From positions 1-61,650 of the forward strand of contig JAXHVO010000098.1 in NCBI GenBank assembly GCA_034189135.1: a DNA stretch of 61,650 nucleotides. Direction: 5' to 3'. Position 1 is the stretch's first letter. Each line of letters opens with the position of its first letter. Positions 11,616-30,359 of the stretch are shown piece after piece. The position numbers were made by a program, and so were the translations under genes. Under the pieces are notes generated by a model, which was not told the DNA's origin, did no database searches, and was given only the letters and a program-made list of their open reading frames with translations. Source of the stretch: Thermodesulfobacteriota bacterium (lineage in GTDB: Bacteria; Desulfobacterota; Desulfobacteria; Desulfobacterales; JAUWMJ01).

Positions 11616-13901
11616 ATGTTCAAATATTTTAAAAATCTTCGCAACAGCCTGGTTTCAAAACTTATTATCACTGTGGGTATCACCATGCTGCTGGGCATAT
11701 CTATCTGGGCTTATTTTAGTATTAAATACCAGAAGGAAAAGATTACCGAAGGTGCAGTTTCAGGTGCCGACCGGTTAAGTACCACCATTAAACTCGGAAC
11801 CCATTATGCCATGATGCTGAATTCAAGGGATGATATCAACCAGATCATACAGAATATAGGCAAACAAAAGGAAATTGAAAATATACGAATCTATAATAAA
11901 GAAGGTGAGATTAAATTTTCCAATAAAACGGACGAGGTCAATGAGAGGACAAATATCAAAGCCGAGGCGTGTGATATCTGCCACCGGTCCGAGCCCCCCA
12001 CCGTCGATTTATCTCTGGATGAACGGATACGAATTTTCGATTCTAAAAAAGGCTATCGTCTGCTTGGAATTATCAGTCCCATTTATAATGAGACCGGCTG
12101 TTCAACCGGATGCCATGTTCATCCGGAAGATAAAAAAATCCTGGGAGCACTTGATTTGGTGGTCTCCCTTGAGGAATCTGATCGGGAGATTTATAACTTT
12201 GAAAAAGGAATCTTTGCCCTTAATGTATTTGTTTTTCTGCTGACCTCTGCAATCATATTTATTTTTGTGCTGAGATTCGTAAACCATCCCATAAAAAGGC
12301 TGATAAAAGGGACAAGGCTGATAGGAAAGGGAGATTATTCCACCCAGGTCATTGTGGACCAGGACGATGAAATGGGACAACTGGCTACCGCCATCAACAA
12401 GATGGGTTCTGAGATAAATGAAAAGCAGGTTGAGCTGAACAGACAGCGGGATGAATACCAGAATCTGTTTGAGCTTGTCCCCTGTCTGATTACGGTCCAG
12501 GATAAAAATTACAAGCTGCTCAAGTACAATCGGGAATTTTATGAAACATTCGGTCCTGAACCTGGAGACTTCTGTTATCATGCCTATAAGGGGCGGAATA
12601 AAAAATGCAAAAACTGTCCGGTTGAAGAAACATTTTTAACCGGCCGGTCATACTTCAGCGAAGAAACCGGTATTAATAAAGATGGGACCACCACTTATTG
12701 GTTTGTTAAATCTTCTCCCATCAGAAATGCACAAGGCGAAATTGTTGCCGCAATGGAAATAAGCCTGGATATTACATCCAGGAAACAGCTGGAAGAGAAA
12801 TTAAAACAATCTGAAAAAAAATATCACGATATTTTCAGTAATATGCCTGATCCTGTTTTTGTCCTGGATGCCGATACCTTTAAAATTCTCGATTGCAACG
12901 ACATGGTCGAGGATGTTTACGGGTATTCCAAGGATGAGATGCTGAATGAGTCCTTCCTTAGACTGTTTAAGGAAGAGGAAAAGGATCAATATGCAAGCAG
13001 ATTAAAGACGTCTGCGGTGATAAACCGTGCAAAGTGTATGAATAAAAATGGCGGTACGCTTTTTATCAGCGTGAGGATTTCAGCCTCCGAGTCTGAGGGG
13101 CAAAAGGTTCTGCTTGTTACCACCCCTGATATAACCAAGCGGCTAGAAACCGAACAACAGTTAATCCAGGCCGGTAAGATGGCTACCTTGGGCGAGATGT
13201 CCACCGGCGTGGCACACGAACTCAACCAACCTCTATCGGTGATTAAAACAGCGAGTAGCTTTTTTATCAAAAAGATTAGGAAAAAGGAGCGTATCAAAGA
13301 TGACATCCTTTTATCCCTGTCGGAAGAGATAGACAGCCATGTGGACCGGGCGGCAAAAATTATCAACCACATGAGAGAATTCGGCCGGAAGTCCGATATA
13401 AAGCTGGTAAAGGTACAGGTAAATGATGTGATTAAAAGATCTTTCGAAATGTTCAGCCAGCAGCTACGGGTCAGAGGAATCGACGTGGCCTGGGATATCA
13501 ACGAAGATCTTCCCATGATAATGGCAAACCCGGACCGCCTTGAACAGGTGTTTATCAATCTTCTGGTTAATGCAAGGGATGCCATTGAAGAGAAATGGAA
13601 ATTAAATTTACGCAAAAATGACAGCGGAAAAATAACTCTGATAACAAGAGCTGAAGAAAAAAGAGTGGTGACTGAGGTCTGTGATACGGGACTGGGAATT
13701 CCAGCAGCCATATCTGATAAGATATTTGAGCCTTTTTTCACCACCAAGGAAGTGGGTGAAGGCACAGGTCTGGGACTTTCCATCAGCTACGGCATTATAA
13801 AAGAATGTGGGGGGACCATAACGGTCGCTTCCAGCAAGGAAAAAGGCACATGCTTTACCATTGCGTTTCCCATACCGAAAGAAGAGAAACCAGAGGGCTG
13901 A
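11616..13901 (+). CDS. Membrane histidine kinase with periplasmic c-type heme motifs and two PAS domains
   Basis: A 761-residue kinase counted from the ATG at 11616; an ATG at 11562 is possible but adds a non-hydrophobic leader. Membrane helices are at about 14-34 and 199-220. The periplasmic loop between them holds CDICH (119-123), a c-type heme motif, and GCSTGCHVHP (about 161-170), a spaced CX3CH. HAMP (~221-272), PAS1 (~282-392, with C, KKCKNCP) and PAS2 (~404-517) follow. HisKA (VAHELNQPL) and HATPase ([11 protein letters not shown]) close it. Heme-bearing sensors of this type suggest detection of periplasmic redox state or gas. It lies 100 bp upstream of tmcDCBA and reads in the same direction, so it probably governs that complex (inference). 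No receiver is fused. Confidence 0.92.
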   Translation: MFKYFKNLRNSLVSKLIITVGITMLLGISIWAYFSIKYQKEKITEGAVSGADRLSTTIKLGTHYAMMLNSRDDINQIIQNIGKQKEIENIRIYNKEGEIKFSNKTDEVNERTNIKAEACDICHRSEPPTVDLSLDERIRIFDSKKGYRLLGIISPIYNETGCSTGCHVHPEDKKILGALDLVVSLEESDREIYNFEKGIFALNVFVFLLTSAIIFIFVLRFVNHPIKRLIKGTRLIGKGDYSTQVIVDQDDEMGQLATAINKMGSEINEKQVELNRQRDEYQNLFELVPCLITVQDKNYKLLKYNREFYETFGPEPGDFCYHAYKGRNKKCKNCPVEETFLTGRSYFSEETGINKDGTTTYWFVKSSPIRNAQGEIVAAMEISLDITSRKQLEEKLKQSEKKYHDIFSNMPDPVFVLDADTFKILDCNDMVEDVYGYSKDEMLNESFLRLFKEEEKDQYASRLKTSAVINRAKCMNKNGGTLFISVRISASESEGQKVLLVTTPDITKRLETEQQLIQAGKMATLGEMSTGVAHELNQPLSVIKTASSFFIKKIRKKERIKDDILLSLSEEIDSHVDRAAKIINHMREFGRKSDIKLVKVQVNDVIKRSFEMFSQQLRVRGIDVAWDINEDLPMIMANPDRLEQVFINLLVNARDAIEEKWKLNLRKNDSGKITLITRAEEKRVVTEVCDTGLGIPAAISDKIFEPFFTTKEVGEGTGLGLSISYGIIKECGGTITVASSKEKGTCFTIAFPIPKEEKPEG

Positions 13902-14001: not shown

Positions 14002-15261
14002 ATGGTAAATTCAGAGAGTTGGGATTGGGAAATCGGTGAAAAAAAGATTCCAACGGGCCATTGGAATGATAAATTTAAATGGGTTGAAGAACCTTATGCC
14101 AGTCCTGACGGAGAGAAGGTGGCTGCAATTGTTAACCTGGATGAAGGCGAATTCTCCGTATGTGTAAATGGAGAAATATGGAAAAGCGTTTTTGATAAAA
14201 TCTGGTACCTTCGATTTTCGCCAGATGGCCGTTTAACCGCTCTGGTGTCGGAAATGGCTGAATGGACGGTTGCGGTGGATGGTATTGCCTGGGAAAATAA
14301 ATTCGGCTACGCATGGGATACAGTTTTCAGTACGGACGGTAAAAATATTGCGGTTTCGGTTCAACAGGACATGCAGTATGGTATGGCAGTAAACGGTGTG
14401 GTTTGGGAAAAGATGTATCCCAATATGACCAATACAGCCTTAAGCCCGGATGGAAAAAGAACAGCTGCCGCAGTTCAAGTGGGAGAATTCGGCGAAGCTG
14501 AAATTCACAAATTTCAGGAAGGTGCATTCACTGCAACGATAGACGGTATAGCCTGGGACAAGAAGTTTGTCAATGTATGGAATATGGCCTTCAGTTCGGA
14601 CAGCAAAAAGCTTTCTGCTGAAGTCAGGCTCAATTTGTACGATTACACCGTTGCTGTTGACGGCGTGGTTTGGGATAAAACTTTCAGTTGCATCTGGGAG
14701 CCGATTTTCAATCCCCGGGGAAATGGCGTTGTTGCCCCGATACGGGTGGACGGAAAATGGACCCTGGCAGAAAATGGCAACCTGATATGGGATCAAAGGT
14801 TTTTTCAGCTGTGGCACCAGATGTACAGTCCTGACGGAAAAAAACTGGCAGCCATTGTGGCTCCAAAATACGGAAGATGGACACTGGCCGTGGACAGCAA
14901 GCCCTGGTCGGTCACTTTCAAGGATTTTGTTACCGATGCGGTTTTCAGCCCGGACAGCCAAAGGCTGGCAACCCTTGCCAAGGATGGTGATTCATGGAAA
15001 GTTGCCGTGGATGGCTCACTATGGTCAAACACCTTTGACATGGCATGGAAACCTGTTTTCAGCCCGGACAGCAAACGGGTGGCCACAAAAGTGGAAAAGA
15101 ACGGAAAATACACCATAGCGGTTAATGATAAGTTGTGGAATAAAGAATGTGGAAATGTGTGGGACCCGATCTTCAGCCCGGACAGCAGTAAGATTCTCCT
15201 CAGAACCATTGAAGATGGTGTATATTACAGACGTATTATTCCGGTCGGCGATATATGCTGA
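14002..15261 (+). CDS. tmcD: TmcD, tryptophan-rich beta-propeller-like subunit of the Tmc complex
   Basis: A 419-residue soluble protein made of about nine repeats of ~40 residues. Each has a pattern like W-D-K-F, W-x-x-x-F/Y-S-P-D-G/S-K-R, then A-V-x-V-D-G/N-x-x-W. This is the WD40/PD40-like propeller repeat seen in TmcD, the Trp-rich cytoplasmic-side subunit of the transmembrane complex in Desulfovibrio. No signal peptide is present. GGAGAAGG lies 6 bp before the ATG. It is the first gene of tmcDCBA, while Desulfovibrio has the order ABCD. Confidence 0.85.
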   Translation: MVNSESWDWEIGEKKIPTGHWNDKFKWVEEPYASPDGEKVAAIVNLDEGEFSVCVNGEIWKSVFDKIWYLRFSPDGRLTALVSEMAEWTVAVDGIAWENKFGYAWDTVFSTDGKNIAVSVQQDMQYGMAVNGVVWEKMYPNMTNTALSPDGKRTAAAVQVGEFGEAEIHKFQEGAFTATIDGIAWDKKFVNVWNMAFSSDSKKLSAEVRLNLYDYTVAVDGVVWDKTFSCIWEPIFNPRGNGVVAPIRVDGKWTLAENGNLIWDQRFFQLWHQMYSPDGKKLAAIVAPKYGRWTLAVDSKPWSVTFKDFVTDAVFSPDSQRLATLAKDGDSWKVAVDGSLWSNTFDMAWKPVFSPDSKRVATKVEKNGKYTIAVNDKLWNKECGNVWDPIFSPDSSKILLRTIEDGVYYRRIIPVGDIC

Positions 15262-15274
15262 TAAAGGAGGGAAA

Positions 15275-15934
15275 ATGCACGATCTTTATAATTTTGTAAC
15301 CGGCCCCCTCGCATGGGCAGCTTTCATCATCTTTATCGCAGGCGGCCTGTACCGACTGATAAACATGCTCTATCTTATTAATAAAAAAGAAAAATTCATT
15401 TATACTTACATGAGTTTCAAATACAGTCTGCGCTCTATTTTTCACTGGATCATACCTTTTGCCACCGTTAACTGGAAAAGGCACCCTGTGTTAACTATTG
15501 TGACCTTTGCTTTTCACCTGTGTCTTGTCATAACACCTGTTTTTCTTTTATCACACGCAATTCTTTGGGATGAATCCTGGAATATCCGCTTATGGACCCT
15601 TTCCGATGACGTGGCGGATATAATGACCCTTATCGTGGTCGGATCCTGCGTTTTTTTTCTCGTCCGCAGGCTGGTGTCCCCGGAGATTCAGTTCGTAACC
15701 ACGGTGTCAGACTACGCAATACTGGCTGTTGTGGCCGCACCGTTTATCACGGGGTTTATCGCTTATCATCAGTGGTTTAATTACCCGCTATTCATGATTC
15801 TCCATATTGTATCCGGAGAAATCATGCTGATTGCAATTCCCTTTACCCGCTTGAGCCATATGTTGTTCTCACCTTTCACCAGGGCATATATGGGATCTGA
15901 ATTCGGCAGTGTTAGAGGGGCAAAGGACTGGTAA
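15275..15934 (+). CDS. tmcC: TmcC, cytochrome b-like membrane subunit
   Basis: A 219-residue integral membrane protein, started at the ATG with AAAGGAGG 5 bp upstream. About five or six membrane helices are visible (LAWAAFIIFIAGGLYRLI; VLTIVTFAFHLCLVITPVFL; IMTLIVVGSCVFFLV; YAILAVVAAPFITGFIAY; FMILHIVSGEIMLIAIPF). His residues in the second and fifth helices (FHLC; ILHIVSG) could ligate heme b, as in the NarI-like family. It should carry electrons across the membrane and exchange them with the quinone pool. It begins 13 bp after tmcD. Confidence 0.9.
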   Translation: MHDLYNFVTGPLAWAAFIIFIAGGLYRLINMLYLINKKEKFIYTYMSFKYSLRSIFHWIIPFATVNWKRHPVLTIVTFAFHLCLVITPVFLLSHAILWDESWNIRLWTLSDDVADIMTLIVVGSCVFFLVRRLVSPEIQFVTTVSDYAILAVVAAPFITGFIAYHQWFNYPLFMILHIVSGEIMLIAIPFTRLSHMLFSPFTRAYMGSEFGSVRGAKDW

Positions 15935-15999
15935 GTCTAAGCAGTGATATGGATCACTCATTTTTTAATTGAAATTGGCTCATTGGGGAGATTATTAAC

Positions 16000-17355
16000 A
16001 TGGCAGAACCCGCAAAAATTGCAGAAAAAACGATCTCTGATATTGGGTTAGACGTAGGTAAGGCAAAACTTACCGATGACCGAATAGAAAAAGTGATAAA
16101 CAGCGTAATCAAAAATGAAACCGGTGCACGCTTGAAGACTTATGTTGAAACATGCATCCATTGTGGTCTTTGCAGCGAAGCGTGTCATTATTATCTTTCC
16201 CATGATAACGATCCTTCTTTTTCACCGGTGGGGAAAGTAAAGCAAACCATGTGGGAAATGTTGCGGAAAAAGGGGAAAGTCAGCCCCGATTTTATCAAAC
16301 GGGCCGCTGTGATTGCTCACACCGAATGTAATCTATGCAAGCGTTGCGCGCAGTATTGTCCATTCGGGATAGACATTGCTTACATAATGACGGTGGTCAG
16401 GCGGATTGTTCACCGACTGGGCTGCACCCCTCAGTATATTCAGGATACCGCCCACAGTCATTCAGTGACCCTGAATCAGATGTGGGTCAAGGGTGATGAA
16501 TGGCCGGATACATTGCAGTGGCAGGAAGAGGAAGCCCAGGCCGAAATTCCGACCTTAAGGATCCCTCTGGAAAAAGAGGGGGCAGACATCATGTACTCCG
16601 TAATCGCTCCTGAACCGAAATTTCAAGCGCAACTGATTTACCAGGCTGCTGTCATCCTGGATGTTGCAGGTGTGAACTGGACCATGCCTGCTACAATGGG
16701 TTGGGACAACAGCGATATGGCCATGTTTACCGGTGATAATGAAATTATGGGACGAATTAAACGGGCTCACTATGAAACAGCGGCCAGGCTTAAGGTAAAG
16801 AGAATTGTTATGGGAGAGTGCGGTCACGCTTTTCGTTCGGTTTACGATATGGGGAATCGCTGGCTCGGATGGCAGATGCCCCCCATACCCATCGTCCATG
16901 CGATCGATTTCTACTATGAAATAATAAAAGAAGGTAAAATAAAGATTAAGAAAAAATATGAAACCCCTGTGACCCTCCACGATCCATGCAATGTGGTCAG
17001 GGGGGGAGGGCTTCATGAAAAGGCCCGTTATGTGGTAAACGCAATTTGTGAGAATTTGATTGAAATGCATCCCAACCGTGAACACAACTACTGCTGCTGT
17101 GCCGGTGGTGGGGTGATCAACTGTGGGCCTCCATATAAAATGACACGAATTGACGGCAACCGGGTAAAAGCAGAGCAGTTGTTTGCGGCAAAAGCAAAAG
17201 GAGCCCAGACCCTTATTGCACCCTGCCACAACTGCCACAGTGGTCTTGAAGATATTAATCATCATTACGGCGTCGGGCAGGAGATAAAGTTCATAGGTGA
17301 TATCCTCTATGAAGTCATGGAGAAACCGGAAGTGGAAGAAGGAGAAAAAGAATGA
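16000..17355 (+). CDS. tmcB: TmcB, HdrD-like iron-sulfur subunit
   Basis: A 451-residue cytoplasmic protein. Two [4Fe-4S] binding motifs are present ([14 protein letters not shown] near residue 52 and [13 protein letters not shown] near 112). A C-terminal HdrD/CCG-type part follows, with [24 protein letters not shown] and APCHNCHSG, which in HdrB/HdrD builds a noncubane cluster for disulfide chemistry. In Tmc it is the cytoplasmic electron acceptor or donor. A weak GGGGAG precedes the ATG. Its stop overlaps the tmcA start (ATGA). Confidence 0.93.
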
Positions 17356-17732
17356 AAAAAGCGGCCGTATTTATTTTCGCCATAACAGTGGGTACCGCAT
17401 TTTTGTTTGTATCGGCATATTCTCAGGAAGAAATGACTTTCGTTGACAATAGTGTTTTTCCAAAACCGGAGAGAACCTCTTCTGTTTTTCGCCATGATGA
17501 GCATAATGAAAAAGCCGGAATTGAAGAATGCAACCAATGTCACCATGTATATGAGGACGGAAAGCTAATGCAAGACGAGTCTTCCGAGGACCGGCGGTGT
17601 TCAGACTGTCATGAATTGAAATCAACCGGCAGCGCACCGGATTTGATGAAAGCCTATCATATGAACTGTAAGGGATGCCATCTAAAACAAAAAAAAGGCC
17701 CGATCATGTGCGGTGAATGCCACCAAAAATGA
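17352..17732 (+). CDS. tmcA: TmcA, type II tetraheme cytochrome c3
   Basis: A 126-residue periplasmic cytochrome with a cleavable signal peptide ([21 protein letters not shown]). There are four c-heme motifs (CNQCH, CSDCH, CKGCH, CGECH), plus extra His for bis-His ligation ([17 protein letters not shown]). This is the heme count of the acidic type II c3 that accepts electrons from the periplasmic type I c3 and hydrogenases and feeds the Tmc membrane complex. AAGGAGAA lies upstream inside tmcB and the genes overlap by 4 bp. It is the last gene of the tmc set. Confidence 0.95.
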
Positions 17733-18343: not shown

Positions 18344-19501
18344 ATGGAAAAAAAAATATTGCTTGTAGATGATGAAGAAGGCATCAGAAAGGTTCTTGGT
18401 ATCACCCTATCCGATTCCGGATATCGGGTATTTCTGGCAGAAAATGGCCAGGAAGCTTTCCGTATTTTCAAAACCGAATCTCCCCCCATTGTCATGACCG
18501 ATATAAAAATGCCGGGAATGGACGGTATAGAACTGCTTAAGAATATCAAACGGCTAAACCCAGACACTGAAGTCATCATGATTACCGGTCACGGAGATAT
18601 GGATCTTGCGATCACCAGTCTGAAGCATAAGGCAACCGATTTTATCACTAAACCGATCAATGATGATATTATGGAAATTGCCCTTAAAAAAGCCCATGAT
18701 AATATCATTGTCAGAAAGCAATTAAGAGAGTACACGCAAAACCTCGAAGCTCTCCTACATGAAAAGTCGGCTTTGCAGGACCGCCTGTCATCTTTGGGTC
18801 TCAGAATAAGTTCCATTTCCCACGGCATAAAAGGCATGTTGACCGGCCTGGATGGGGGGATGTATCTTCTGGACTCGGGTATTGCAAAAAACGATCAGGA
18901 CCAGCTCAAAGAGGGCTGGGGGATTGTAAAGCAGATGGTTGATCGTATAAGGAAGATGGTTCTGGACATTCTTTTTTATGCCAAAGAACGGGAGCTGAAG
19001 ACTGAAAAGGTTGATGTATTAAGCTTTACCAGGGATGTGGCTTCGATGGTTGAACCAAAAATAAAAGAAAAACAGATTGAATTTGTACAAAATTTTGAAA
19101 AATCACTCGGTGAGTTTGAGATAGACCCGGGTTTTGTTAGGTCAGCCATTATAAATATCCTGGAAAACGCTATAGATGCCTGCATAAAACAGTCATCAAA
19201 AAATTATCATAAAATTGTTTTTGAAGTAAAACAGGATAAAAATGATATCAGGTTTGATGTGCATGATACCGGAATTGGTATGGACAGTGACACCAAGAAA
19301 AAGGTGTTTGATCTTTTTTTCTCATCCAAGGGAAGTCAGGGAACGGGGTTGGGTCTTTTTATCGCAAGCAAGGTCATCGGTCAGCATGGAGGATCAATAG
19401 AAGTGGCTTCCACACCCGGCCACGGATCACATTTTTGCATTAGACTGCCGAAAAAATTGCCGGAATTTATAAAAACAGCGTCTTCAAAGCAAGCTAAATG
19501 A
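18344..19501 (+). CDS. Soluble receiver-histidine kinase hybrid
   Basis: A 385-residue cytoplasmic protein. The receiver (1-120) has Asp53 in TDIKMPGMDG and Lys103 in FITKPIND. A short coiled coil (120-150) leads to a dimerisation/phospho-acceptor region with His160 (SSISHGIKGMLTG, an H-box variant). HATPase follows with NAIDA, DTGIGM and GTGLGLF. There is no sensor domain and no membrane segment, so its input is probably phosphorylation of its own receiver. It lies between the tmc and hdr sets, which makes it a candidate to act on either the lone receiver or the receiver inside HdrA (inference). Confidence 0.88.
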   Translation: MEKKILLVDDEEGIRKVLGITLSDSGYRVFLAENGQEAFRIFKTESPPIVMTDIKMPGMDGIELLKNIKRLNPDTEVIMITGHGDMDLAITSLKHKATDFITKPINDDIMEIALKKAHDNIIVRKQLREYTQNLEALLHEKSALQDRLSSLGLRISSISHGIKGMLTGLDGGMYLLDSGIAKNDQDQLKEGWGIVKQMVDRIRKMVLDILFYAKERELKTEKVDVLSFTRDVASMVEPKIKEKQIEFVQNFEKSLGEFEIDPGFVRSAIINILENAIDACIKQSSKNYHKIVFEVKQDKNDIRFDVHDTGIGMDSDTKKKVFDLFFSSKGSQGTGLGLFIASKVIGQHGGSIEVASTPGHGSHFCIRLPKKLPEFIKTASSKQAK

Positions 19502-20175: not shown

Positions 20176-21048
20176 TCACATTTCTTTAAGTTTTTTCCGA
20201 AAGTCTTTGGTAATGGCCAGGTTCAGATCAAGTCGCAGATCCTTTTCCGATAGACCAATGGCAAGCCCCAGCAATTGTGGAAGATAAAGAATTGTTATGG
20301 ACAGAGTTTCCTGATACTTCTTGGAAATCTTCTGTTGATAAGCCTCTAGGTTCATTTGACACATGGGGCAAACCGTAACAATGACATCCGCCCCCACGGC
20401 ACCATGTAAAATGGCATGAACGAGCTCCAGTCCGACCTCCATCTTGGTGTTCATGTGAGAGGCGCCGCAGCATTTTCCCCCCATCTCCCATGGATAAACC
20501 TTAGCACCTATTGCCTCAATGAGTGGTTCCATAGACTTGGGTTTTTCAGGATCATCAAAAACAGCATACGGTCGGAGACACTGGCATCCATAGTACGGTG
20601 CGATTTTAAGATCGGTCAAAGGCTTCTTTACCCGGTTCTTTATTTTACCCGGTCCTATATCTTGAGAAACAACGTCAAGAAGATGCCGGACGCGCAGTTT
20701 GCCCTGCAGACTGATTTTTTCCTCCTCCAGCACATCATTTAACTTTTGAAGAAGATCCGCATCCTTTTTGATTTTTTGTTCCACTTTTTTCAGGTTCAGG
20801 TAACAGGCACTGCATGGAACCATAATATCATTCGATCCGTCCATCTTTTCTGCCAGGGCTAAATTACGGGCCGGAAGTGCCAAAGATAAAAGATGACTGG
20901 TAGCCTCGGCTGCACTGGCTCCACAGCATGTCCAGTCGTCTATTTCCACAAGTTCTGCATCCACCGCATGCATGAAGGCTTGAGTAGAAATGTTATATTC
21001 AAGGGCCGTTCCCTCCAGAGAACAACCCGGATAGTATTGGTATTTCAT
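20176..21048 (-). CDS. hdrB: HdrB-like subunit (CCG domain protein)
   Basis: A 290-residue soluble protein with two CCG motifs, C-X31/39-CC-X35/36-C-X2-C. The first runs from YPGCS through WTCCGAS to PCSACYLN. The second runs from YYGCQCLRP through GKCCGAS to CPMCQMN. In methanogen HdrB each CCG binds a noncubane [4Fe-4S] cluster that reduces a heterodisulfide. In sulfate reducers the physiological acceptor is not established (DsrC trisulfide and related thiols have been proposed). It ends the six-gene operon and overlaps hdrC by 4 bp (ATGA). Confidence 0.93.
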   Translation of the reverse strand: MKYQYYPGCSLEGTALEYNISTQAFMHAVDAELVEIDDWTCCGASAAEATSHLLSLALPARNLALAEKMDGSNDIMVPCSACYLNLKKVEQKIKKDADLLQKLNDVLEEEKISLQGKLRVRHLLDVVSQDIGPGKIKNRVKKPLTDLKIAPYYGCQCLRPYAVFDDPEKPKSMEPLIEAIGAKVYPWEMGGKCCGASHMNTKMEVGLELVHAILHGAVGADVIVTVCPMCQMNLEAYQQKISKKYQETLSITILYLPQLLGLAIGLSEKDLRLDLNLAITKDFRKKLKEM

Positions 21049-21611
21049 GGCCTGTCCTCCAGTTCCTCTACCTTTCGAAATAATGGCTCTAACCGGCGTT
21101 TTCCTTTTGATGGAATCTCCACGGAAACTTTACCCTTACTCATCAGCTTCATCCCCAGTAGGGAAAAATTTAAAGGTAGAAAAGGATCCTTCATGGAAAA
21201 AAAATAAAGAGTCATGAACTCCATTTCCCTAACTCTGCCGTGACGGCGAACACTTTCCATAAAGCTTTTATAAAAGCGAACACTCTTCTTATAAAGCTTC
21301 AGGTTCTCCTTTGCAGCTATCTGCTTGAGTGCATCCATCGCTTCGGTTAGAAGAAGTCCTCGGGGGCATCGAAGCGTACAGTAATAACAGTCGGAACAAA
21401 GGGCAAAGGTTTTGCTTTGGAATATGGCATCTTTTTGCCCCATCATTACCATGCGCCAGAGCTTACGGGGTGTGGAATCCATGGCAAAGGCGTTCGGGCA
21501 CGAGCCTGTGCAGGTTCCGCACTGTATGCATGACTGGACCATTTCTCTGACCGGAGCCAATGGATCGGAAACAACGGCAAAATCATTTTCTTGTGGTGCA
21601 GGTTGATTCAT
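21045..21611 (-). CDS. hdrC: HdrC-like ferredoxin subunit
   Basis: A 188-residue protein, started at the ATG at 21611 with AGAGAGGG upstream; a longer frame runs back into hdrA and is not needed. There are two [4Fe-4S] motifs, CIQCGTCTGSCPN and CSDCYYCTLRCPRG, followed by a helical C-terminal part, as in HdrC. It passes electrons from HdrA to HdrB. It starts 15 bp after the hdrA stop. Confidence 0.92.
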   Translation of the reverse strand: MNQPAPQENDFAVVSDPLAPVREMVQSCIQCGTCTGSCPNAFAMDSTPRKLWRMVMMGQKDAIFQSKTFALCSDCYYCTLRCPRGLLLTEAMDALKQIAAKENLKLYKKSVRFYKSFMESVRRHGRVREMEFMTLYFFSMKDPFLPLNFSLLGMKLMSKGKVSVEIPSKGKRRLEPLFRKVEELEDRP

Positions 21612-21625
21612 TAAAATTCCCTCTC

Positions 21626-24600
21626 TTAGTATAATGTCTCCACCAGGGCTGCGTCTATGACATCCAACATCCGATGGATGGGAAATCCTTCGAGAATTGA
21701 AGCGCTGCTGGGGCAGACCGCTGCACACGAACCGCAGCCCTGACACATCACCGGATTAACCAGCACCTGTTCAAGGTCCTTATCGATTGTTCGCGCACCA
21801 TATGGACAGGCGTCAATACACAATTCGCACAGACTGCAGATACTATGACGTACTTTTGCCACCACTTTTCCTGCAGGCAGGTTCTTCTTTGAAAGAATTC
21901 TTAAAGCACGCTGTGCCGCGGCTTCAGCCGTTGCGATGGATTCAGCAATAGACCGCGGTGAATGCGCCAGACCACAGGCAAAAATGCCTTCTTTAAGCGA
22001 ATCTACCGGTCTCCATTTTGATTCCGCTTCCTGGAAAAAACCGTCCTGATCGACGTTCGCCCCAAAGGACTGTACCAATTCGTCTGGTAGACTGGGAACA
22101 ACACCGGTGGCCAGTACTGCAAGATCTGCGTTGATTTCGATATTTCGCCCCAGAATCGGGTCGAACGCACTTATCATAAGCGGCTTATCCGATCCGTCGA
22201 CCACATTCATTTCAGGTTTTTTATCGATATTGTACTGGATAAAAATAATACCCGCTTTTCGTGCCTGGGTGTAATAGGTTTCGGTAAATCCGTAAGTCAT
22301 CATATCCCGGTAAAAAATGTAAATAGCGATGTCGGGATTTTGCTCCTTTAATTTCAGGGCATTTTTTAATGCGGTTGCGCAGCATACACGGCTGCAATAG
22401 TTCCGCGGCTCCTGTCTTGAATCGACACACTGGATCATAACCACAGACTCGAGTTGGCCAGGATCGATCTTGTTTTCACTTAGCTTCATCTCCAGTTCCA
22501 TTTGAGTCACTATGGCCTCGCTGGAACCATAGCCATAAGAGGTCGTACCGGCTTCCCTCCCTCCGGTGGCAAGGATGGTGATGCCATGTTCAAGCGTATT
22601 TACAGCTCCATCTTCATCTTCCATGGTGGTATAAAATCGACCCACCTGGCCATATGCGCCCGTCAACCGGATACCGGTATGCACCTGTATCATAGGATGC
22701 TTTTCCACCTTCAAAAGTGTTTCATTCAGAAGGGCCTGGGTTGAATGGCCGTCGAGTGTCTGTTTGAGCCAGTTGAGATTGCCGCCAAGCACTTCGCCTT
22801 GCTCCAGAATATCCACTTCAAATCCATGATCTGCCACAGCTAAAGCGGCTGTCATGCCAGCAATTCCCCCTCCTACCACCAGTGCCCGCTGGGAAACAGG
22901 AACTGTAGCTAAGGGAGACGGATCAAGATGTTTCACTCCTGCAATTCCCATTTCAATAGCTGAAAGGCAAAAGCCAAAAGGATCAAAGCCGCCCTGGTCC
23001 TCATTCTCTGAAATTTCATTTTTCAGCAATGTGTGTATGTCCACCACATCGATAAGGGAAGGATTAAGACCGACCTTATGGCCCAGTTCCCTGATTTTTC
23101 GTGCGTATACATAGGGAAGACAAGCCGCGATCAGAATCCTGTTGGGTTCATGTTTTTTCACCTGCTCAACAAGAGATTCCCATCCATCGGCAGTGCAGGT
23201 TTGCTCAACAAAGACCACCTGGTCTACTTCAGGGTCCGTCATGAGACGTGTGCTAAGCTGGTCAGTATCTATGCTTTTTAACAGCACATCACCACAGGTA
23301 CAGACCGCCACCATGACCTTTGGTATGTCCATTGAAACATCAGTAAAGACCGTATCTGGTGGGGAATCAGACGAAAGGCTGCCACCTGCGGCATGGATGA
23401 CGCGGGATGCAGCCAACGACGCTGAAGAAGCCTGTATGACCGATTCGCTTATGTCCTTAAGTCCGGAAAAACTACCGCCAATCACGATACCTTCCTTAAC
23501 CGTTCTTGAGTATGAAAATGGTTCTACTTGGCAAAATCCCCATTCATTGAGATCAATCCCCAACGTTTCTGACAACTCTGCCGTACCGGAGGAAGGTCTT
23601 TGGCCAACGGCGAGTACTGCCATGTCAAATTTTTCATCATGGACTTTGCCGCCCATATCCATATATCGAAGTATTAAATCACCACTGGGTTTGTCCTGCG
23701 TATTGTCCGCTATCACCGAGTGGACACGCCCCCGTTTAAAACATACACCGTGATCAGTCTCCGCCCTGTCGCGATATCGTTGGAAAGATTTACCAAAGGT
23801 TCGCATGTCCATATAGAAAATGGTAGCTTCAAGCTTGTGGTTTGTCTTTTCTTTGGCAACCAGAGCTTCCTTGATGGCGTACATGCAACATATATTGGAG
23901 CAAAAATCTGCATCGGTCTGCATGTCTCGTGATCCCACACACTGAATCCATGCCACCTTTTTAATCGGTTTACCGTCACCTGGACGAACCAGTTTTCCCT
24001 GATACGGCCCGGTTCCGCTCATGATTCTTTCGAACTCCAGACTTGTCACCACATTGGGATACATCCCGTATCCGAAGGTGTCCTTTCCGGTGGCAGGATC
24101 AAAATAGTCGGTTCCTCCGCAAAGGACGATGGCTCCGACCTGAAGTTCACGTCCACGGGTGGCCTCTAATTTTTCATATATACCCAGTATTTTGGGGATA
24201 AGAGTATCCGGCTCAAACGGCTTAATCAGGTAATCAAGAGCGCCGATTTTCATTGCTTCAACGGCGGTCTCAACAGTCGCATATGCCGTCATCATCACCA
24301 CGTTCAGATCGGGGAAAGACTCTTTGGCCTTCTTAAGAACTTCAACGCCATCCATTCCCGGCATTTTTATATCCAGCAGCATGATATTATAGGTCGATTT
24401 TTCCAGCTGCTCAAGGGCTTCCGGTCCTGATCCTGCCGTGTCCACCGTGAAACCTTCCTCATCATCAAGCCAGGCTTTAAGCGAGTCGCGAAGAATTAAC
24501 TCATCGTCAACCACCAGAATGCGAAATTTTTTACGTTCCTGCTGGGATAAACGTATGGCCTGTGTGGGACAAACCTCTTCACAGGCTCCACAACGGGTAC

Positions 24601-25093
24601 AGGCAGTTACATCAATCACGTAAGAATTTGGGATGGAGTGGGGGACAGGAAGATAGATCGCCTTTCGAGAAGCCAGACCGGTATTGAAAAGATCCGGGAC
24701 TTCCACCGGGCATACCTGAACACAGGCTCCGCACCCGGTACAGAGTTCCTGATCCACCCAGGCTGGTTTTTGATCCAGCATCACCGCAAAGTTACCAGGC
24801 TCTCCTTCCACGGATGCAATTTGGGTGGAAAGCAGAATTTCTATGTTTCGATGGAAAAGCCCTTTACGAAGGCAATACTGGGAAGATGCATCCCTGTCCA
24901 CCAGGGGAAGCATTTTACACATACCGCATCGATCGGTGGGGAACTGATAATCGAGTTGGCTTAAGATTCCACCCAGGTGCGGTGCACGGTCTATGAGAGT
25001 GACACCATAACCGGTTTCAGCCAGATCGAGGGCAGCCCGAATACCGCTGATTCCTGCCCCAACCACCAATGCCTTGCCGATCTTTTTGTTCAT
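21626..25093 (-). CDS. hdrA: Tandem HdrA flavoprotein with an embedded response-regulator receiver domain
   Basis: A 1155-residue protein counted from the ATG at 25093 (GGAGGT upstream; a TTG 12 bp earlier is unlikely). Order of parts: FAD-binding HdrA core (ALVVGAGISGIRAAL) and two ferredoxin motifs (CTGCGACVQVCP ~118, CTRCGACEEVCP ~165). Then comes a complete receiver (~190-311) with VVDDE, Asp241 in LLDIKMPGMDG, Thr269 in MMTAYA and Lys291 in LIKPFEP. The rest of the HdrA core resumes at VGAIVLCGGTDYFDP. A second HdrA follows with its own N-domain (VAVCTCGD, ILIAACLP), FAD motif (ALVVGGGIAGMTAAL) and C-terminal ferredoxins (CSLCELCIDACP, CQGCGSCAAVCP). The first copy lacks the usual N-domain. 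The receiver resembles that of the NtrC-type regulator at 8267. Phospho-control of electron bifurcation is inference. Confidence 0.93.
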   Translation of the reverse strand: MNKKIGKALVVGAGISGIRAALDLAETGYGVTLIDRAPHLGGILSQLDYQFPTDRCGMCKMLPLVDRDASSQYCLRKGLFHRNIEILLSTQIASVEGEPGNFAVMLDQKPAWVDQELCTGCGACVQVCPVEVPDLFNTGLASRKAIYLPVPHSIPNSYVIDVTACTRCGACEEVCPTQAIRLSQQERKKFRILVVDDELILRDSLKAWLDDEEGFTVDTAGSGPEALEQLEKSTYNIMLLDIKMPGMDGVEVLKKAKESFPDLNVVMMTAYATVETAVEAMKIGALDYLIKPFEPDTLIPKILGIYEKLEATRGRELQVGAIVLCGGTDYFDPATGKDTFGYGMYPNVVTSLEFERIMSGTGPYQGKLVRPGDGKPIKKVAWIQCVGSRDMQTDADFCSNICCMYAIKEALVAKEKTNHKLEATIFYMDMRTFGKSFQRYRDRAETDHGVCFKRGRVHSVIADNTQDKPSGDLILRYMDMGGKVHDEKFDMAVLAVGQRPSSGTAELSETLGIDLNEWGFCQVEPFSYSRTVKEGIVIGGSFSGLKDISESVIQASSASLAASRVIHAAGGSLSSDSPPDTVFTDVSMDIPKVMVAVCTCGDVLLKSIDTDQLSTRLMTDPEVDQVVFVEQTCTADGWESLVEQVKKHEPNRILIAACLPYVYARKIRELGHKVGLNPSLIDVVDIHTLLKNEISENEDQGGFDPFGFCLSAIEMGIAGVKHLDPSPLATVPVSQRALVVGGGIAGMTAALAVADHGFEVDILEQGEVLGGNLNWLKQTLDGHSTQALLNETLLKVEKHPMIQVHTGIRLTGAYGQVGRFYTTMEDEDGAVNTLEHGITILATGGREAGTTSYGYGSSEAIVTQMELEMKLSENKIDPGQLESVVMIQCVDSRQEPRNYCSRVCCATALKNALKLKEQNPDIAIYIFYRDMMTYGFTETYYTQARKAGIIFIQYNIDKKPEMNVVDGSDKPLMISAFDPILGRNIEINADLAVLATGVVPSLPDELVQSFGANVDQDGFFQEAESKWRPVDSLKEGIFACGLAHSPRSIAESIATAEAAAQRALRILSKKNLPAGKVVAKVRHSICSLCELCIDACPYGARTIDKDLEQVLVNPVMCQGCGSCAAVCPSSASILEGFPIHRMLDVIDAALVETLY

Positions 25094-25130: not shown

Positions 25131-26273
25131 TTATGATATTCCCACCACATCGGCAAGCTCATTTTCCATAAACACAGACAGGGGTGGATCTTCCTCGATA
25201 CTTCTTCCCGCCTCATACTCAAATGCTTTTTGGGTTTGCTGAGATATCGTACGGAACAGCTCCATGACCGGAATGTCGTTGGGACAAGCATTGGAGCATT
25301 GCCCGCATCCAATACAGGCGGTACTCATATGAGCCAGACGTGTAATGTGATAAAAAACAGTATCTGTGGGCATCTTTATCGCCCCTTTTCTCTTGGCCCA
25401 CTTCAGATACTGGGATGGCTCATGGTTAAAGACATCCGTAACAAACACACACTCCTTGCAGTAACAAACCGGACAGGCCACCCTGCAGTTGTAGCAGTTA
25501 ATACAATTGGCAAGATATTGGGTCAGCTTTTCCAGGGTGTTGGTTGCCGAGGTGGTTTCCGCAAACATTTTATCGCGATAGTCCATGTGCTGGGTGATAA
25601 GTGATTCAACGGCATCTCTTCGAGCCTGGGGTTCTTCCATTCTGGAAAGATCCAGTCTGTTTAATATTTCTTCTCCCCTGGAATTTTTGGCCTGAACCAG
25701 AAGCTGATTATTTGTATCCAGACCAAAAAGCCCGATAATAATATCAGCGCTTTCGGGAACAGGGTGTTCACATGCTTTGCAGGCTGTTGCAATGTCAACG
25801 CCATCAATGGCTGGTTCTCCTCCGGAGAGTACATTTTGGTAAAACTTTTTAGTCGATTCGGTACCGTCCTCTCCGACAAATTTAAAATAATCTCTGTTTT
25901 TATAAGCGCCAAGGCAATCGATTCCTATGATTACCAGTTCATCCAGGTAACCCTGCTTGAGTTTCACCAGTTCGATGAACGCGCGTATCTCGCATGAACG
26001 CAACACCACCGCTACCTTTCCTCCTGCCGGTTTGCGTGTGAGTTTGGAAACAAGCTTGGCTGTATTTGCAGGGAACATCGGTGCTAAGGGGTCAACACCG
26101 TCCAGACGTTCAGGGTCTGTGATAAGGGTGGGCATGACAACATTCTTCATGGGAAGGTGTTGTGGGACCAGAATTGCGCTGACATCTTCCAGTTGGAGGA
26201 TGGATCGGAAAAAATCCTTAAGTGATGTTAAAAGATTCTGGTCTGTTACGTTAAGTTTTGCACTGATCGCCAT
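25131..26273 (-). CDS. FrhB/FdhB-like iron-sulfur flavoprotein of the Hdr operon
   Basis: A 380-residue protein, started at the ATG at 26273 with GGAGG upstream. The N-terminal two thirds resemble the FrhB/FdhB (F420 hydrogenase/formate dehydrogenase beta) domain: KVAVVLRSCEIRAFIELVKL, IIGIDCLGAY and a Cys pair in ACKACEHP. The C-terminal third is a ferredoxin-like part with CINCYNCRVACPVCYCKEC and CIGCGQCSNACPN. In methanogens such subunits pass electrons between a flavin and Fe-S clusters. Here it lies between mvhD and the receiver-HdrA and probably links a donor such as NADH, formate or ferredoxin to HdrA (inference). No hydrogenase or formate dehydrogenase large subunit is nearby. Confidence 0.82.
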   Translation of the reverse strand: MAISAKLNVTDQNLLTSLKDFFRSILQLEDVSAILVPQHLPMKNVVMPTLITDPERLDGVDPLAPMFPANTAKLVSKLTRKPAGGKVAVVLRSCEIRAFIELVKLKQGYLDELVIIGIDCLGAYKNRDYFKFVGEDGTESTKKFYQNVLSGGEPAIDGVDIATACKACEHPVPESADIIIGLFGLDTNNQLLVQAKNSRGEEILNRLDLSRMEEPQARRDAVESLITQHMDYRDKMFAETTSATNTLEKLTQYLANCINCYNCRVACPVCYCKECVFVTDVFNHEPSQYLKWAKRKGAIKMPTDTVFYHITRLAHMSTACIGCGQCSNACPNDIPVMELFRTISQQTQKAFEYEAGRSIEEDPPLSVFMENELADVVGIS

Positions 26274-26323
26274 AGTGTCCTCCAAAATTAGCTGTTAAGC
26301 TGGTTGGCAGATAATCCAGCTTA

Positions 26324-26746
26324 CTAAATAACCATCTTTAACTTGGCATCGTTTGGGCCGAGGGTTTTGATCTGAGTAACCAGATCCCGCATTGTTTCAG
26401 CGAATTGGATTCCATCGCTTGCTCCAATCCAGGTTAATCTCAGCCGTTTATCGTCAAAACCGAATTGAGGAAGGATCTCCTTTAAAAGCTTGATCCTTCT
26501 TCGAGCCTTATAATTTCCATTGATATAATGACAGTCACCGGGGTGGCATCCGCTGACAAGGACGCCATCAGCTCCTTCTAAAAATGCCTTGATCACATAT
26601 TGGGGGTCGACCATTCCGGTACACATCACCCGAATCAGTCTGACATTTTTTGGATAGCTCAATCTGGAAGTTCCGGCCAGATCGGCGGCAGTGTATGTAC
26701 ACCAGTTACAAACAAAAGCGATGATGGTTGGTTCAAAATCTTCCAT
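26324..26746 (-). CDS. mvhD: MvhD/FlpD-like electron transfer subunit
   Basis: A 140-residue protein, started at the ATG at 26746 with GGAGGAG upstream. It matches the MvhD/FlpD delta-subunit family, which binds a [2Fe-2S] cluster and connects hydrogenase or formate dehydrogenase to HdrA. The features are AFVCNWCTYTAADLAG, a central VMCTGMVDP and SGCHPGDCHY, with all expected Cys. It is separated from the upstream hdrA-GltD gene by 200 bp containing a long hairpin. Confidence 0.93.
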   Translation of the reverse strand: MEDFEPTIIAFVCNWCTYTAADLAGTSRLSYPKNVRLIRVMCTGMVDPQYVIKAFLEGADGVLVSGCHPGDCHYINGNYKARRRIKLLKEILPQFGFDDKRLRLTWIGASDGIQFAETMRDLVTQIKTLGPNDAKLKMVI

Positions 26747-26777
26747 GATCTCCTCCAAGACTATTAAAATTCGGGTA

Positions 26778-26948: not shown

Positions 26949-29900
26949 CTATTGGCCTACCGCATGCAGGGCATCCATGATACCATCCAGTTCTGCAAAA
27001 ATTTGCTTTTCTTTAAAATGTCTGACCTGCGCAGCGCCACTTGGGCAAAATCCACTGCAACTTCCGCAACCTTTGCAGATAGCCTCATTTACCACCGACA
27101 CCCCTCTACGCTCATCAAACTCAATGGCAGTATAAGGGCAAAGGTTGATACATGTTTGGCAACCGGCGCAAACATCCGGATCTATCCAGGAAATGGTTGA
27201 AGGGACCTGGACATATCCCTTTGTCGCTAAAGCAAGAGCTTTTGCGGCCGCCCCTGATGCCTGGGCGACTGCATCAGGTATATCTTTAGGGGACTGGCAG
27301 GCTCCGGCGAGAAATACTCCGTCCGTAGCCGTATTGAGTGGCCCCAGTTTTGGATGCTCTTCCAGAAAAAAACCGTCTGCGCCAATATTGACTCCAAAAA
27401 CCCTTCCCACATCGATGGCATCTTTTCTAGCCTCCATGGCCACACACAGGATAACCATATCCACCGGAACGCGTAAACGGCTGGCCAGCAGCGTATCTTC
27501 AGCAATGGCGATAAGTTTGCCCTCTTCTTCAGGCGTTGTGGCCTGATCGGAAATTTCAGCCACTTTGCCTCTTATGAAATTAGTGCCTTCCTTCTGGCAC
27601 CTTTCGTAAAATTCTTCGTACCCTTTACCGAAGCAACGCATATCAATGTAAAAATCATAAACTTTTGTATCGTGCCCAACCTTTTCTTTTATCAGGTGAG
27701 TATATTTTAGGGCGTACATACAGCAGACCCTCGAACAATAATCATGATAATTCACATCTCGGCTTCCGATACAATGAAGCAGCGCAACACTTTTTGGGGC
27801 TTTAGTCAATTCCCCGTTTTCATCTCTAATCAGAATCTGTCCGCCGGTGGGGCCGGTGGCATTGCTCAAACGTTCGAACTCAAGGCTGGTAAAAACATTC
27901 GGATATGTGCCGTAGCCGAACTGTTTCATTGGTGTAGGATCCATTACATCATATCCTGTCGCCAGGATGATGCTGCCCACCTGAACCTCTATTTCTTCTT
28001 CCTTCATGGTGTGGTCTATGGCCTGTGCCTCGCAGACTTTGACACATTCCATACACTCACAGCATATACCGCAGTTCAAACAGCGCAAAGCTTCCATCCG
28101 GGCTTCTTCTTCAGAAAATCCGAGGTCCACCTCCTCAAAGGAATGGATCCTTTCCTGCGGGTCTTTAAACTGTGACCGGACCCTTACACCTGTTGAAATG
28201 TCTTTTCCAATTTCCTTCCAGTCCTGGCCCGGAGGATTCTCCGCCTCCATTTGTTCCGCATACAGTTGAAGATCTTCGCCTTCGATGAACTGGCAAATAG
28301 CCTCAACAGCTTTATGTCCTGATGCAACTGCTTCAATAACCGTTGCGGGACCGGTAACCGAATCACCACAGGCGAACACATGGGGGATTGAGGTCTGCAT
28401 CGTATAAGGCTTTACCTCAATCGTGTTCCGCGAAGTCCATTTCAATTCAGGTTCCTTGTCCATCCAGGACGAATCTATTCTCTGGCCAATGGCCGGAATG
28501 ATCGCATTACAGTCAATAATAAACTCAGAGCCTTCCACAGGGACTGGTCGACGTCGTCCACTGACATCAGGCTTTCCCAGTTTCGTCTTTATGCACTCAA
28601 ATCCTGTGACCTTCCCGTCTTTTTCCACTATTCTGACCGGAGCGGTGAGATAGTGAAAATTTATCCCTTCCTCTACTGCACCGTGAACTTCTTCTTCATA
28701 AGCCGGCATTTCACGTTCTGAGCGTCGATAAACCAATGAAACGGCCTGTGCGCCTAGGCGTTTTGCAACACGGGCCGCATCAATGGCGACATTTCCACCA
28801 CCAACGATCACCACTTTATCTCCAGGACATTTTTTATTGCCCAGATTTACATCCCGGAGAAAACTAACCGCATCAATGACGCCAATAGTCTCATCTTCAC
28901 CGGAAACACGCATTTTCATGGAACCGTGAGCCCCAATTCCAAGGAAAACGGCGGAAAATCCTTGGTCCTCAAGATCCTTAAGAGTAAAGTCCGAGCCGAA
29001 TCTAACATCGGTCTGGGCTTCTACACCCAAGCTGAGAATATGGTTTATCTCCTTATCCAGAATTTCCGGAGGCAGACGGTAATCAGGAATGCCCACGCGA
29101 AGCATGCCGCCCAAAATAGGCAGGGCTTCAAAAATGGCTACCTGAAAACCTTTCAACCGCAAATAATAGGCCACAGTCAAGCCTGCCGGACCTGAACCTA
29201 CCACAGCCACTTTTTCAGGGCGATCCTTTATTTCAGGCACGGTCAAGTCATCCGGGTTTACCTGATCTGCAGCGAAACGCTTTAAATCTCTGATGGCAAT
29301 CGCGGTGTCGACCTCCATCCTGCGGCACTGAAATTCACAGGGATGAGGGCAAACCCGACCAAGCACACCGGGAAGCGGAAGTCGTTCCATGATCAGCTGA
29401 ACAGCCTCAAGATATTTACCTTGGCCGATCAGCTGAACATATCCATGCACATTGATACCGGCCGGGCAGGTAATCACACAGGGTGCCCGATCTTTTTTTT
29501 CTATACAAAATGTAATGGGAACCGCCTGGGGAAAGGATCGGTAAATAGCATTTCTATCTCCAAGCCCTTCGTCCCATGCGCTCGGTACAGTCACCGGACA
29601 GACCTTGGTACATTCACCACATCCTGTGCACACACCTTCTTTTATATATCGGGGTTTTCGACGGATCTTGACCGTGTAGTTGCCGATATAACCGGATACT
29701 TCCTGTACTTCGCTGTAAGAGAGCAGTTCAATGTTCGGGTTCTGGGCGACATCAACCATTTTAGGGGTGCCAATACAGGCCGCGCAGTCGAGAGTGGGAA
29801 AGGTCTTGTCAAACTGGAGCATATGTCCCCCGATGGTGGTTTCTTTCTCCACCAGATATACTTTATGACCTGAGTTGCCGATATCCAGCGCCGCCTGCAT

Positions 29901-30359
29901 TCCGGATATGCCTCCACCCACCACCATGATGTCCGGCAGAACATTCACTTCACGGGTTTCAAGACTGTAGTGATGCTTCACGCGGTTGATGGCTGCGGCT
30001 GCCAGTGTCTTTGCCTTCCTTGTTGCTTCATCCTCGTCTTCCGTCACCCATGAAACCTGTTCCCGCACCGAAGCCATCTGGAAAAAATAGGCGTTCAGCC
30101 CGGCCCGCTGGCAGGCCCCCTGGAAGGTCTTTTCATGCAATCTTGGTGAACAGGAAGCGACCACAACTCTATTCAGACCATATTCTTGAATATCTTTTTC
30201 AATCATCTCCTGTCCGGGATCGGAGCACATGAACTTATAATCCCGAGAGACTACCACATCGTTAAGTTTACGGGCAAAGTCCGCCACTTCCTCCACCCGG
30301 ACTTTATAGGCGATGTTTATCCCGCAGTGGCAAATGTAAAAGCCTATTTTGATAGACAT
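26949..30359 (-). CDS. hdrA: HdrA fused with a GltD/NfnL-type NAD(P)H-flavin module
   Basis: A 1136-residue protein. The HdrA N-domain (ICHCGINI, MCSDPGQ, VVVASCSPRLHE) leads to the FAD motif IMVVGGGISGMQAAL and CTGCGECTKVCP (~244). Then from ~290 to ~755 a glutamate-synthase-small-subunit (GltD/NfnL)-type module is inserted. It has CPHPCEFQC, an FAD motif VAVVGSGPAGLTVAYYL, an NAD(P)H motif VVIVGGGNVAIDAARVAKRLGA and FACGDSVTGPATVIEAV. HdrA resumes with CLNCGICCECMECVKVC, VGSIILATGYDVMDP and the C-terminal ferredoxins CAGCQTCINLCP and CKGCGSCSGFCP. It should take electrons from or deliver them to NAD(P)H and bifurcate at the HdrA flavin (inference). It is the first gene of the Hdr operon. 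Confidence 0.93.
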   Translation of the reverse strand: MSIKIGFYICHCGINIAYKVRVEEVADFARKLNDVVVSRDYKFMCSDPGQEMIEKDIQEYGLNRVVVASCSPRLHEKTFQGACQRAGLNAYFFQMASVREQVSWVTEDEDEATRKAKTLAAAAINRVKHHYSLETREVNVLPDIMVVGGGISGMQAALDIGNSGHKVYLVEKETTIGGHMLQFDKTFPTLDCAACIGTPKMVDVAQNPNIELLSYSEVQEVSGYIGNYTVKIRRKPRYIKEGVCTGCGECTKVCPVTVPSAWDEGLGDRNAIYRSFPQAVPITFCIEKKDRAPCVITCPAGINVHGYVQLIGQGKYLEAVQLIMERLPLPGVLGRVCPHPCEFQCRRMEVDTAIAIRDLKRFAADQVNPDDLTVPEIKDRPEKVAVVGSGPAGLTVAYYLRLKGFQVAIFEALPILGGMLRVGIPDYRLPPEILDKEINHILSLGVEAQTDVRFGSDFTLKDLEDQGFSAVFLGIGAHGSMKMRVSGEDETIGVIDAVSFLRDVNLGNKKCPGDKVVIVGGGNVAIDAARVAKRLGAQAVSLVYRRSEREMPAYEEEVHGAVEEGINFHYLTAPVRIVEKDGKVTGFECIKTKLGKPDVSGRRRPVPVEGSEFIIDCNAIIPAIGQRIDSSWMDKEPELKWTSRNTIEVKPYTMQTSIPHVFACGDSVTGPATVIEAVASGHKAVEAICQFIEGEDLQLYAEQMEAENPPGQDWKEIGKDISTGVRVRSQFKDPQERIHSFEEVDLGFSEEEARMEALRCLNCGICCECMECVKVCEAQAIDHTMKEEEIEVQVGSIILATGYDVMDPTPMKQFGYGTYPNVFTSLEFERLSNATGPTGGQILIRDENGELTKAPKSVALLHCIGSRDVNYHDYCSRVCCMYALKYTHLIKEKVGHDTKVYDFYIDMRCFGKGYEEFYERCQKEGTNFIRGKVAEISDQATTPEEEGKLIAIAEDTLLASRLRVPVDMVILCVAMEARKDAIDVGRVFGVNIGADGFFLEEHPKLGPLNTATDGVFLAGACQSPKDIPDAVAQASGAAAKALALATKGYVQVPSTISWIDPDVCAGCQTCINLCPYTAIEFDERRGVSVVNEAICKGCGSCSGFCPSGAAQVRHFKEKQIFAELDGIMDALHAVGQ

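Follow-up and report, generated by a model that had tools for sequence, protein, structure and literature searches.

Gene content of the locus

The DNA analysed here (the window) comprises 61,650 nt of contig JAXHVO010000098.1 (assembly GCA_034189135.1, Thermodesulfobacteriota bacterium; GTDB Desulfobacterales; JAUWMJ01). It carries an Hdr operon on the minus strand together with candidate kinase genes and genes for a transmembrane redox complex:

11562..13901, plus strand: HK_A, a membrane protein with a periplasmic CXXCH (c-heme) sensor, HAMP, PAS, HisKA and HATPase domains; candidate kinase (locus comparison, domain searches)
14002..17732, plus strand: tmcDCBA-like transmembrane redox complex genes (locus comparison)
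18344..19501, plus strand: REC-HK_B, a kinase core joined to a receiver; member of the HdrA-REC-linked subclade and candidate kinase or relay protein (profile search, tree)
20176..21048, minus strand: HdrB-like CCG-domain subunit (profile searches, locus comparison)
21045..21611, minus strand: HdrC-like iron-sulfur subunit (profile searches, locus comparison)
21626..25093, minus strand: HdrA-REC, a fused type II HdrA with an internal receiver and two FAD/thioredoxin-reductase-like domains (translation, domain searches, alignment, model)
25131..26285, minus strand: FrhB/FdhB-like flavin and Fe-S subunit (profile search, locus comparison)
26324..26758, minus strand: FlpD/MvhD (profile searches, locus comparison)
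26949..30359, minus strand: HdrA-GltD fusion (type III HdrA/HdrL-like), NAD(P)H-binding candidate (profile searches; PMC12054007, PMC2702500)
30701..32245, minus strand: REC-PAS-HK_C, candidate kinase, linked in 19 of 51 orthologous loci (profile search, locus comparison)

The order HdrA-GltD, FlpD, FrhB-like, HdrA-REC, HdrC, HdrB is kept in most of the 51 orthologous loci, where these genes are present 42, 45, 46, 51, 41 and 38 times, respectively. The listed ORF of the HdrC-like gene (21045-21746) overlaps the end of HdrA-REC, and an internal start is likelier. FlxABCD-HdrABC systems have flxABCD genes next to hdrABC. HdrA-REC is accompanied by HdrB, HdrC and FlpD, and its remaining partners are HdrA-GltD and the FrhB-like subunit. 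The HdrA-GltD protein resembles HdrL, the type III HdrA of Desulfobacterium autotrophicum, and stands in an operon with mvhD (PMC2702500). The accessible part of that report describes no receiver in HdrL and places response regulator, histidine kinase and CheY-like genes next to hdr loci as separate genes; in the window, by contrast, the receiver belongs to the operon's second HdrA.

A receiver domain inside a fused HdrA

HdrA-REC is encoded on the minus strand, a correction to the preliminary description of this locus. The frame spans 1155 residues with zero internal stops and starts at an ATG (25093) preceded by GGAGG; a TTG lies 12 bases before the ATG. Its domains are as follows:

24536..24763, minus strand: inserted 2x[4Fe-4S] ferredoxin domain, residues ~111-186, Cys 118/121/124/128 and 165/168/171/175 (profile search, alignment)
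24158..24526, minus strand: receiver domain, residues ~190-312, with D196, D197, E198, D241, T269 and K291 (Pfam Response_reg at 192-301, E 5e-31)
23384..24145, minus strand: first flavin domain resumes, residues 317-570, from VGAIVLCGG; cluster Cys 385/398/402/403 and K408 (alignment)
21629..23332, minus strand: second half, residues 588-1155, with an HdrA N-terminal domain (C598/C600/C633), flavin domain and C-terminal ferredoxin (alignment, model)

Known HdrA types include GltD fusions, MvhD fusions and fused twins (PMC12054007, PMC9012536, PMC2702500); the fused, type II proteins occur in methane-metabolising archaea and in Moorella MetFV-HdrABC (PMC12054007; PMC9012536). HdrA-REC is of this type, with two thioredoxin-reductase-like FAD domains in one chain: the first carries the inserted ferredoxin domain, and the second lacks the insert and is followed by the C-terminal ferredoxin. 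The flavin-proximal [4Fe-4S] cysteines and lysine are found in both halves (C385/398/402/403 with K408; C889/900/904/905 with K910), as in type II HdrA. The halves are otherwise complementary, with C56 in half 1 and the N-domain cysteines C598/C600/C633 in half 2, which has zero Cys between 709 and 889; this is the type II arrangement, in which the N-terminal domain belongs only to the second half and the Cys197 equivalent only to the first (PMC9012536). What sets HdrA-REC apart is the receiver after the ferredoxin domain, which the accessible parts of the type II reports do not mention (PMC12054007, PMC9012536). The HdrA2 equivalog NF040770 matches HdrA-REC with 687 bits in 4 stretches, under its curated cut-off of 1100 bits; HdrA-REC is a relative that lies outside this equivalog. 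We infer that its complex performs flavin-based electron bifurcation.

The preliminary description had placed a full receiver with all its phosphorylation residues between the second ferredoxin motif and the VGAIVLCGG strand, and each part of that claim was borne out. The Response_reg score is 107.5 bits (gathering threshold 30.2), HdrA family matches flank the receiver on both sides, and the acid pair D196 D197, followed by E198, the acceptor D241, T269 and K291 are all present. In the alignment to the HdrA of 5ODC, query residue 185 corresponds to residue 313 and query residue 316 to residue 318, so that ~130 residues stand in for ~4 right after the inserted ferredoxin domain. The insertion point is thus a four-residue turn where the ferredoxin domain gives way to the flavin domain. 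Receiverless paralogues on contigs 48 and 90 of this genome match the query over 4/6-188 and then from 316 onward within a few bases, and the aligned receiverless relatives have a clean gap at the receiver site. HdrA of the HdrABC-MvhAGD and Elp-Hdr complexes (5ODC, 8RVU, 7BKB) shows the same domain order and folds as HdrA-REC, and the model of half 1 superimposes on 7bke_A with Z 27 (2.0 Å over 409 residues). Unlike HdrA-REC, however, the 5ODC-type protein has a single flavin domain per chain and only the four-residue turn.

The fusion is conserved and has a single origin

How widespread is this architecture? A genome-collection search returned ~20 orthologues (50-68% identity), each of which carries the receiver. 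Within the window's order, a junction-spanning query matched 155 of 389 sampled genomes (71 of 150 genera); the fusion proper is present in ~145 of the 389, once ~10 matches are set aside that are either weak and unlisted or come from universal-stress proteins bearing this receiver. A phylum-wide sample gave 15 matches in 395 genomes, 7 of them in the window's order, and among the matches listed in a class-level search all genomes belong to that order. Could the gene be a frameshift, misassembly or chimera, as the preliminary description had considered? No supporting evidence was found, the frame is uninterrupted, and because the identical architecture is conserved across the whole order, in ~145 genomes from many assemblies, we reject this explanation as having practically no chance of being correct.

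D241, T269 and K291 are invariant in 88 of 88 aligned receivers, a set of HdrA-REC proteins and three universal-stress proteins in which some rows are overlapping fragments of one gene, and they remain invariant (56/56) in a non-redundant alignment. The acid pair DD is kept in 86 of 87. The routine loss of Asp or Lys that would have spoken against a phosphorylated receiver is therefore not seen. With an identity to the window protein of 0.67, the receiver is more conserved than the flavin domains (0.57-0.58); the N-domain stands at 0.35.

In a tree of receivers, all those of HdrA fall on one branch apart from every other sampled receiver (support 100/99), which indicates a single origin; universal-stress-protein receivers nest among them, and since the tree is built on few columns its inner forks are weak. 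The receiver had initially been likened to that of the NtrC-type regulator at 8267. The two share motifs and 48% identity, but the HdrA branch excludes the regulator, so that a special kinship is rejected and the common blocks are ordinary receiver motifs.

HdrA-REC loci are enriched in histidine kinases

Orthologues of HK_A and REC-HK_B are linked to HdrA-REC in 38 and 35 of the 51 loci, usually directly downstream, a frequency comparable to that of HdrB (38/51). At five loci (L044, L046, L048, L161, L173) no HdrBC stands at the usual position, and HdrA-REC is immediately followed by the kinases. Considering only loci flanked by 6.5 kb or more, a histidine kinase lies within 8 kb at 33 of 39 receiver loci versus 6 of 17 receiverless HdrA loci (Fisher p = 0.0005, indicative only, as related species are non-independent), with a mean of 2.1 versus 0.5 kinases within that distance. 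The preliminary description had named the kinases at 18344, 30701 and 9642 as possible phosphate donors. The first two are recurrent neighbours (35/51 and 19/51), but the gene at 9642 is linked in only 2 of 51 loci and is rejected as main partner, and the most often linked kinase, HK_A at 11562, had been missed.

HK_A has two membrane helices and a periplasmic segment with the CXXCH motif, followed by HAMP, PAS, HisKA and HATPase domains. The motif is present in 49 of 49 full-length relatives, and the sensor gives a partial, sub-threshold match to the sensor family of the chemotaxis transducer Mcp40H-20. In the REC-HK_B tree, HdrA-REC-linked copies form one group (support 95/92), with L039, L046 and L235 as exceptions; the linkage label changes 6 times on this tree versus 14.9 times in shuffles (0/500). 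Tmc/Hmc-linked copies are its sister group, and unlinked members of the HdrA-REC-type subclade occur in three HdrA-REC genomes (G055, G115, G171). In other genomes, relatives of HK_A and REC-HK_B also adjoin Tmc- and Hmc-like operons that lack HdrA-REC, so HdrA-REC may not be their sole or main target.

Does the signal flow from the kinases to the enzyme? Alternatively, the flavoenzyme would be the sensor, its redox state altering phosphate uptake or release by the receiver, so that HdrA-REC would compete for phosphate or report to the kinases and sigma-54 regulators nearby. The occurrence of kinases and NtrC-type regulators at the locus fits this idea, as does the service of several redox complexes by a single kinase-pair family, and a receiver within a redox enzyme could sense the flavin state. 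However, only 9 of the 51 loci have a clearly linked NtrC-type gene and HK_A has a predicted heme sensor of its own, and we regard reverse signalling as improbable.

Natural variants of the receiver and of the enzyme

In family f112 (L188-L190; 46-47% identity), operon and enzyme core are retained, but 3 of 3 members have a decayed receiver, with D197P, T269A and K291H in 2 of 3 and an identity to the window of 0.28 versus 0.49 for the flavin domains. These orthologues fit the description of pseudo-receivers, which have lost phosphotransfer residues (PMC12632262), whereas the window protein and the 88 receivers of the main set retain the Asp, Thr and Lys. The f112 loci are without linked HK_A/REC-HK_B orthologues and have a different kinase/NtrC pair nearby; one of the genomes (G434) retains a Tmc-linked HK_A despite the decayed receiver. 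In another genome (G220), neither kinase was matched genome-wide at the thresholds used and the receiver carries D197E, E198A and Y271C, whereas a congener (G239) has the kinases and an intact receiver. Decay in the absence of the kinase orthologues fits phosphorylation by HK_A/REC-HK_B as the reason why the receiver is kept. The rule is not strict: five loci with adequate flanks (L036, L147, L174, L175, L178) have an intact receiver and no kinase within 8 kb, the first three of which suffice to reject an obligatory decay. Unlinked kinases are found elsewhere in the source genomes of L175 and L178 (G115 and G055) and an HK_A elsewhere in that of L147 (G341). At such loci, therefore, either kinases encoded elsewhere must act on the receiver or no kinase is required.

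The f112 proteins show that an HdrA core can be retained with a decayed phosphorylation site, as expected if the receiver were a folded spacer whose phosphorylation is irrelevant in vivo. This is very improbable as a general explanation, given the invariance of D241, T269 and K291 (88/88), the conservation of the receiver above that of the enzyme core, and the kinase linkage.

What would phosphorylation act upon? Electrons leave the methanogen enzyme through the inserted ferredoxin domain, where polyferredoxins dock, and arm movements have been proposed to gate bifurcation (PMC12350162). Together with the N-terminal cluster domain, this ferredoxin domain would constitute the low-potential route, as judged from methanogen structures. 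Four genomes of one genus (L139-L142) have lost both domains, but their receiver is perfect and the kinases are still present. Thus, the receiver cannot act solely on the low-potential ferredoxin branch, and a specific gate on that branch, weakened by these variants, is unlikely.

The same variants bear on a second possibility, that receiver phosphorylation selects a partner (a ferredoxin or polyferredoxin, the Tmc complex or another Hdr module) and does not govern internal electron transfer. The receiver adjoins the domain that serves as docking site for MvhB/FmdF in methanogens (PMC12350162), and in some species a universal-stress protein beside the operon carries the same receiver type, like a portable interaction module. 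Since L139-L142 keep the receiver without the ferredoxin exit, docking there is not its general role, and we give a pure docking or assembly switch a minor chance.

A model for direct control of the Hdr flavoenzyme

An integral, conserved receiver beside a largely dedicated kinase subclade makes control without transcription the natural reading. The suggestion in the preliminary description that phosphorylation gates the enzyme non-transcriptionally thus gains from the single origin of the receiver and from the kinase subclade, and loses the ferredoxin branch as only target. From these comparisons we consider it reasonably probable that HdrA-REC is under direct aspartyl-phosphate control by a redox-sensing kinase pair. 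The parts of this reading differ in strength: (i) the receiver is very likely a working phospho-acceptor; (ii) the linked kinases are likely its phosphate source; and (iii) phosphorylation acts, with somewhat better than even prospects, upon the enzyme itself, which is probably controlled directly by signalling and not by gene expression alone.

In this model, HdrA-REC is the flavoprotein of a soluble Hdr complex. HdrA-GltD, FlpD and the FrhB-like subunit would provide the NAD(P)H-type input of the complex, and HdrC-HdrB its output. The candidate phosphate donors are HK_A, with its periplasmic c-heme motif, and REC-HK_B, and the signal may be the redox state of a periplasmic cytochrome or of the quinone chain. 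Upon phosphorylation of D241, the receiver would shift against the flavin domain, so as to switch activity, electron distribution, partner docking or assembly post-translationally and to match cytoplasmic electron allocation to respiration. In the predicted structure (mean pLDDT 80; low confidence at 45-79 and 271-292), the receiver ends in a helix (295-312) that is nearly continuous with the first flavin-domain strand (315-324), so a rearrangement of the receiver could pass mechanically to the flavin domain. Through this junction, the state of the receiver would be tied to the geometry of flavin and ferredoxin or to a surface for docking.

CheB, RssB and similar proteins are response regulators with enzymatic output in which the receiver is a separate N-terminal domain. 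HdrA-REC likewise joins an intact receiver to an enzyme but differs in that its receiver lies inside an oxidoreductase. In the part of the open-licence literature on HdrA and electron bifurcation that was covered, we found no published description of a receiver-HdrA fusion. Both the enzyme family and the signalling domain are known; the internal position of the receiver is apparently undescribed.

Flavin-based electron bifurcation determines how much energy many anaerobes have to spend, and its control on short time scales is, to our knowledge, an open question. A phosphorylatable receiver in the flavoprotein, with candidate heme-sensing kinases next to it, brings direct control within reach of assays on purified proteins, for which the natural variants (a decayed receiver, or a receiver kept without the ferredoxin domain) are ready-made controls. 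If the model is correct, HdrA-REC would represent an unusual two-component output, a receiver within a redox enzyme. Tentatively, and with somewhat less confidence than in direct control as such, we suggest that the c-heme kinase family common to Tmc/Hmc complexes phosphorylates the HdrA receiver; the state of the respiratory chain would then directly govern cytoplasmic electron allocation, with no transcriptional step, throughout an order of sulfate reducers.

Variants of the receiver-containing HdrA

The receiver-containing fused HdrA (HdrA-REC) of four loci, L139 (8828-11714), L140, L141 and L142, was found to be missing the inserted ferredoxin domain together with the N-terminal cluster domain; the receiver, both flavin domains and the C-terminal ferredoxin are retained, as are the kinases. 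In the more distant family f112 (L188, L189 and L190), the receiver is a decayed pseudo-receiver and the remaining HdrA is conserved; at 682-722 aa, its HdrA-GltD-like partner is reduced in length as well.

Receiverless HdrA paralogues of the same genome (contigs 48, 57, 82, 90, 94, 106 and 130; L010-L014, L016 and L018) contain an in-frame TGA, as known selenocysteine HdrAs do. This TGA lies in the first-half segment matching residues 4-188 of HdrA-REC, within which HdrA-REC itself has Cys56 and Cys59. Separately, an in-frame TGA breaks the HdrA-REC of one genome (G055, L178:8766-10071) downstream of the receiver and may be a sequencing error, a real break or selenocysteine.

Neighboring kinases and operons

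Genes next to kinases of the window:
GcvH-like protein plus M54 peptidase-like gene (6728-7669 and 7693-8262), adjoining the NtrC/PAS-kinase pair 8267/9642
14002-17732, tmcDCBA-like operon, flanked on each side by one member of the kinase pair (11562-13901 and 18344-19501)
17767, single-domain receiver, after the tmcDCBA-like operon

Parts of the GcvH-like/M54 peptidase-like/NtrC/PAS-kinase set also adjoin HdrA-REC in L168, L169 and L195. The sensor kinase at 11562-13901 carries a periplasmic CXXCH motif (CDICH), conserved in all full-length relatives (49/49), and is predicted to be a c-heme sensor kinase. The operon company of this kinase type is Hdr, Tmc and Hmc-like.

Related receivers in universal-stress proteins

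Receivers falling inside the HdrA receiver group were also found between universal-stress domains (USP-REC-USP):
L033:16500 (-), USP-REC-USP protein
L158:13695 (+), USP-REC-USP protein
L047:2831 (+), USP-REC-USP protein

In L033 and L158, the gene lies near an HdrA-REC operon. The USP-REC-USP proteins look like cases of receiver transfer, in at least two groups.
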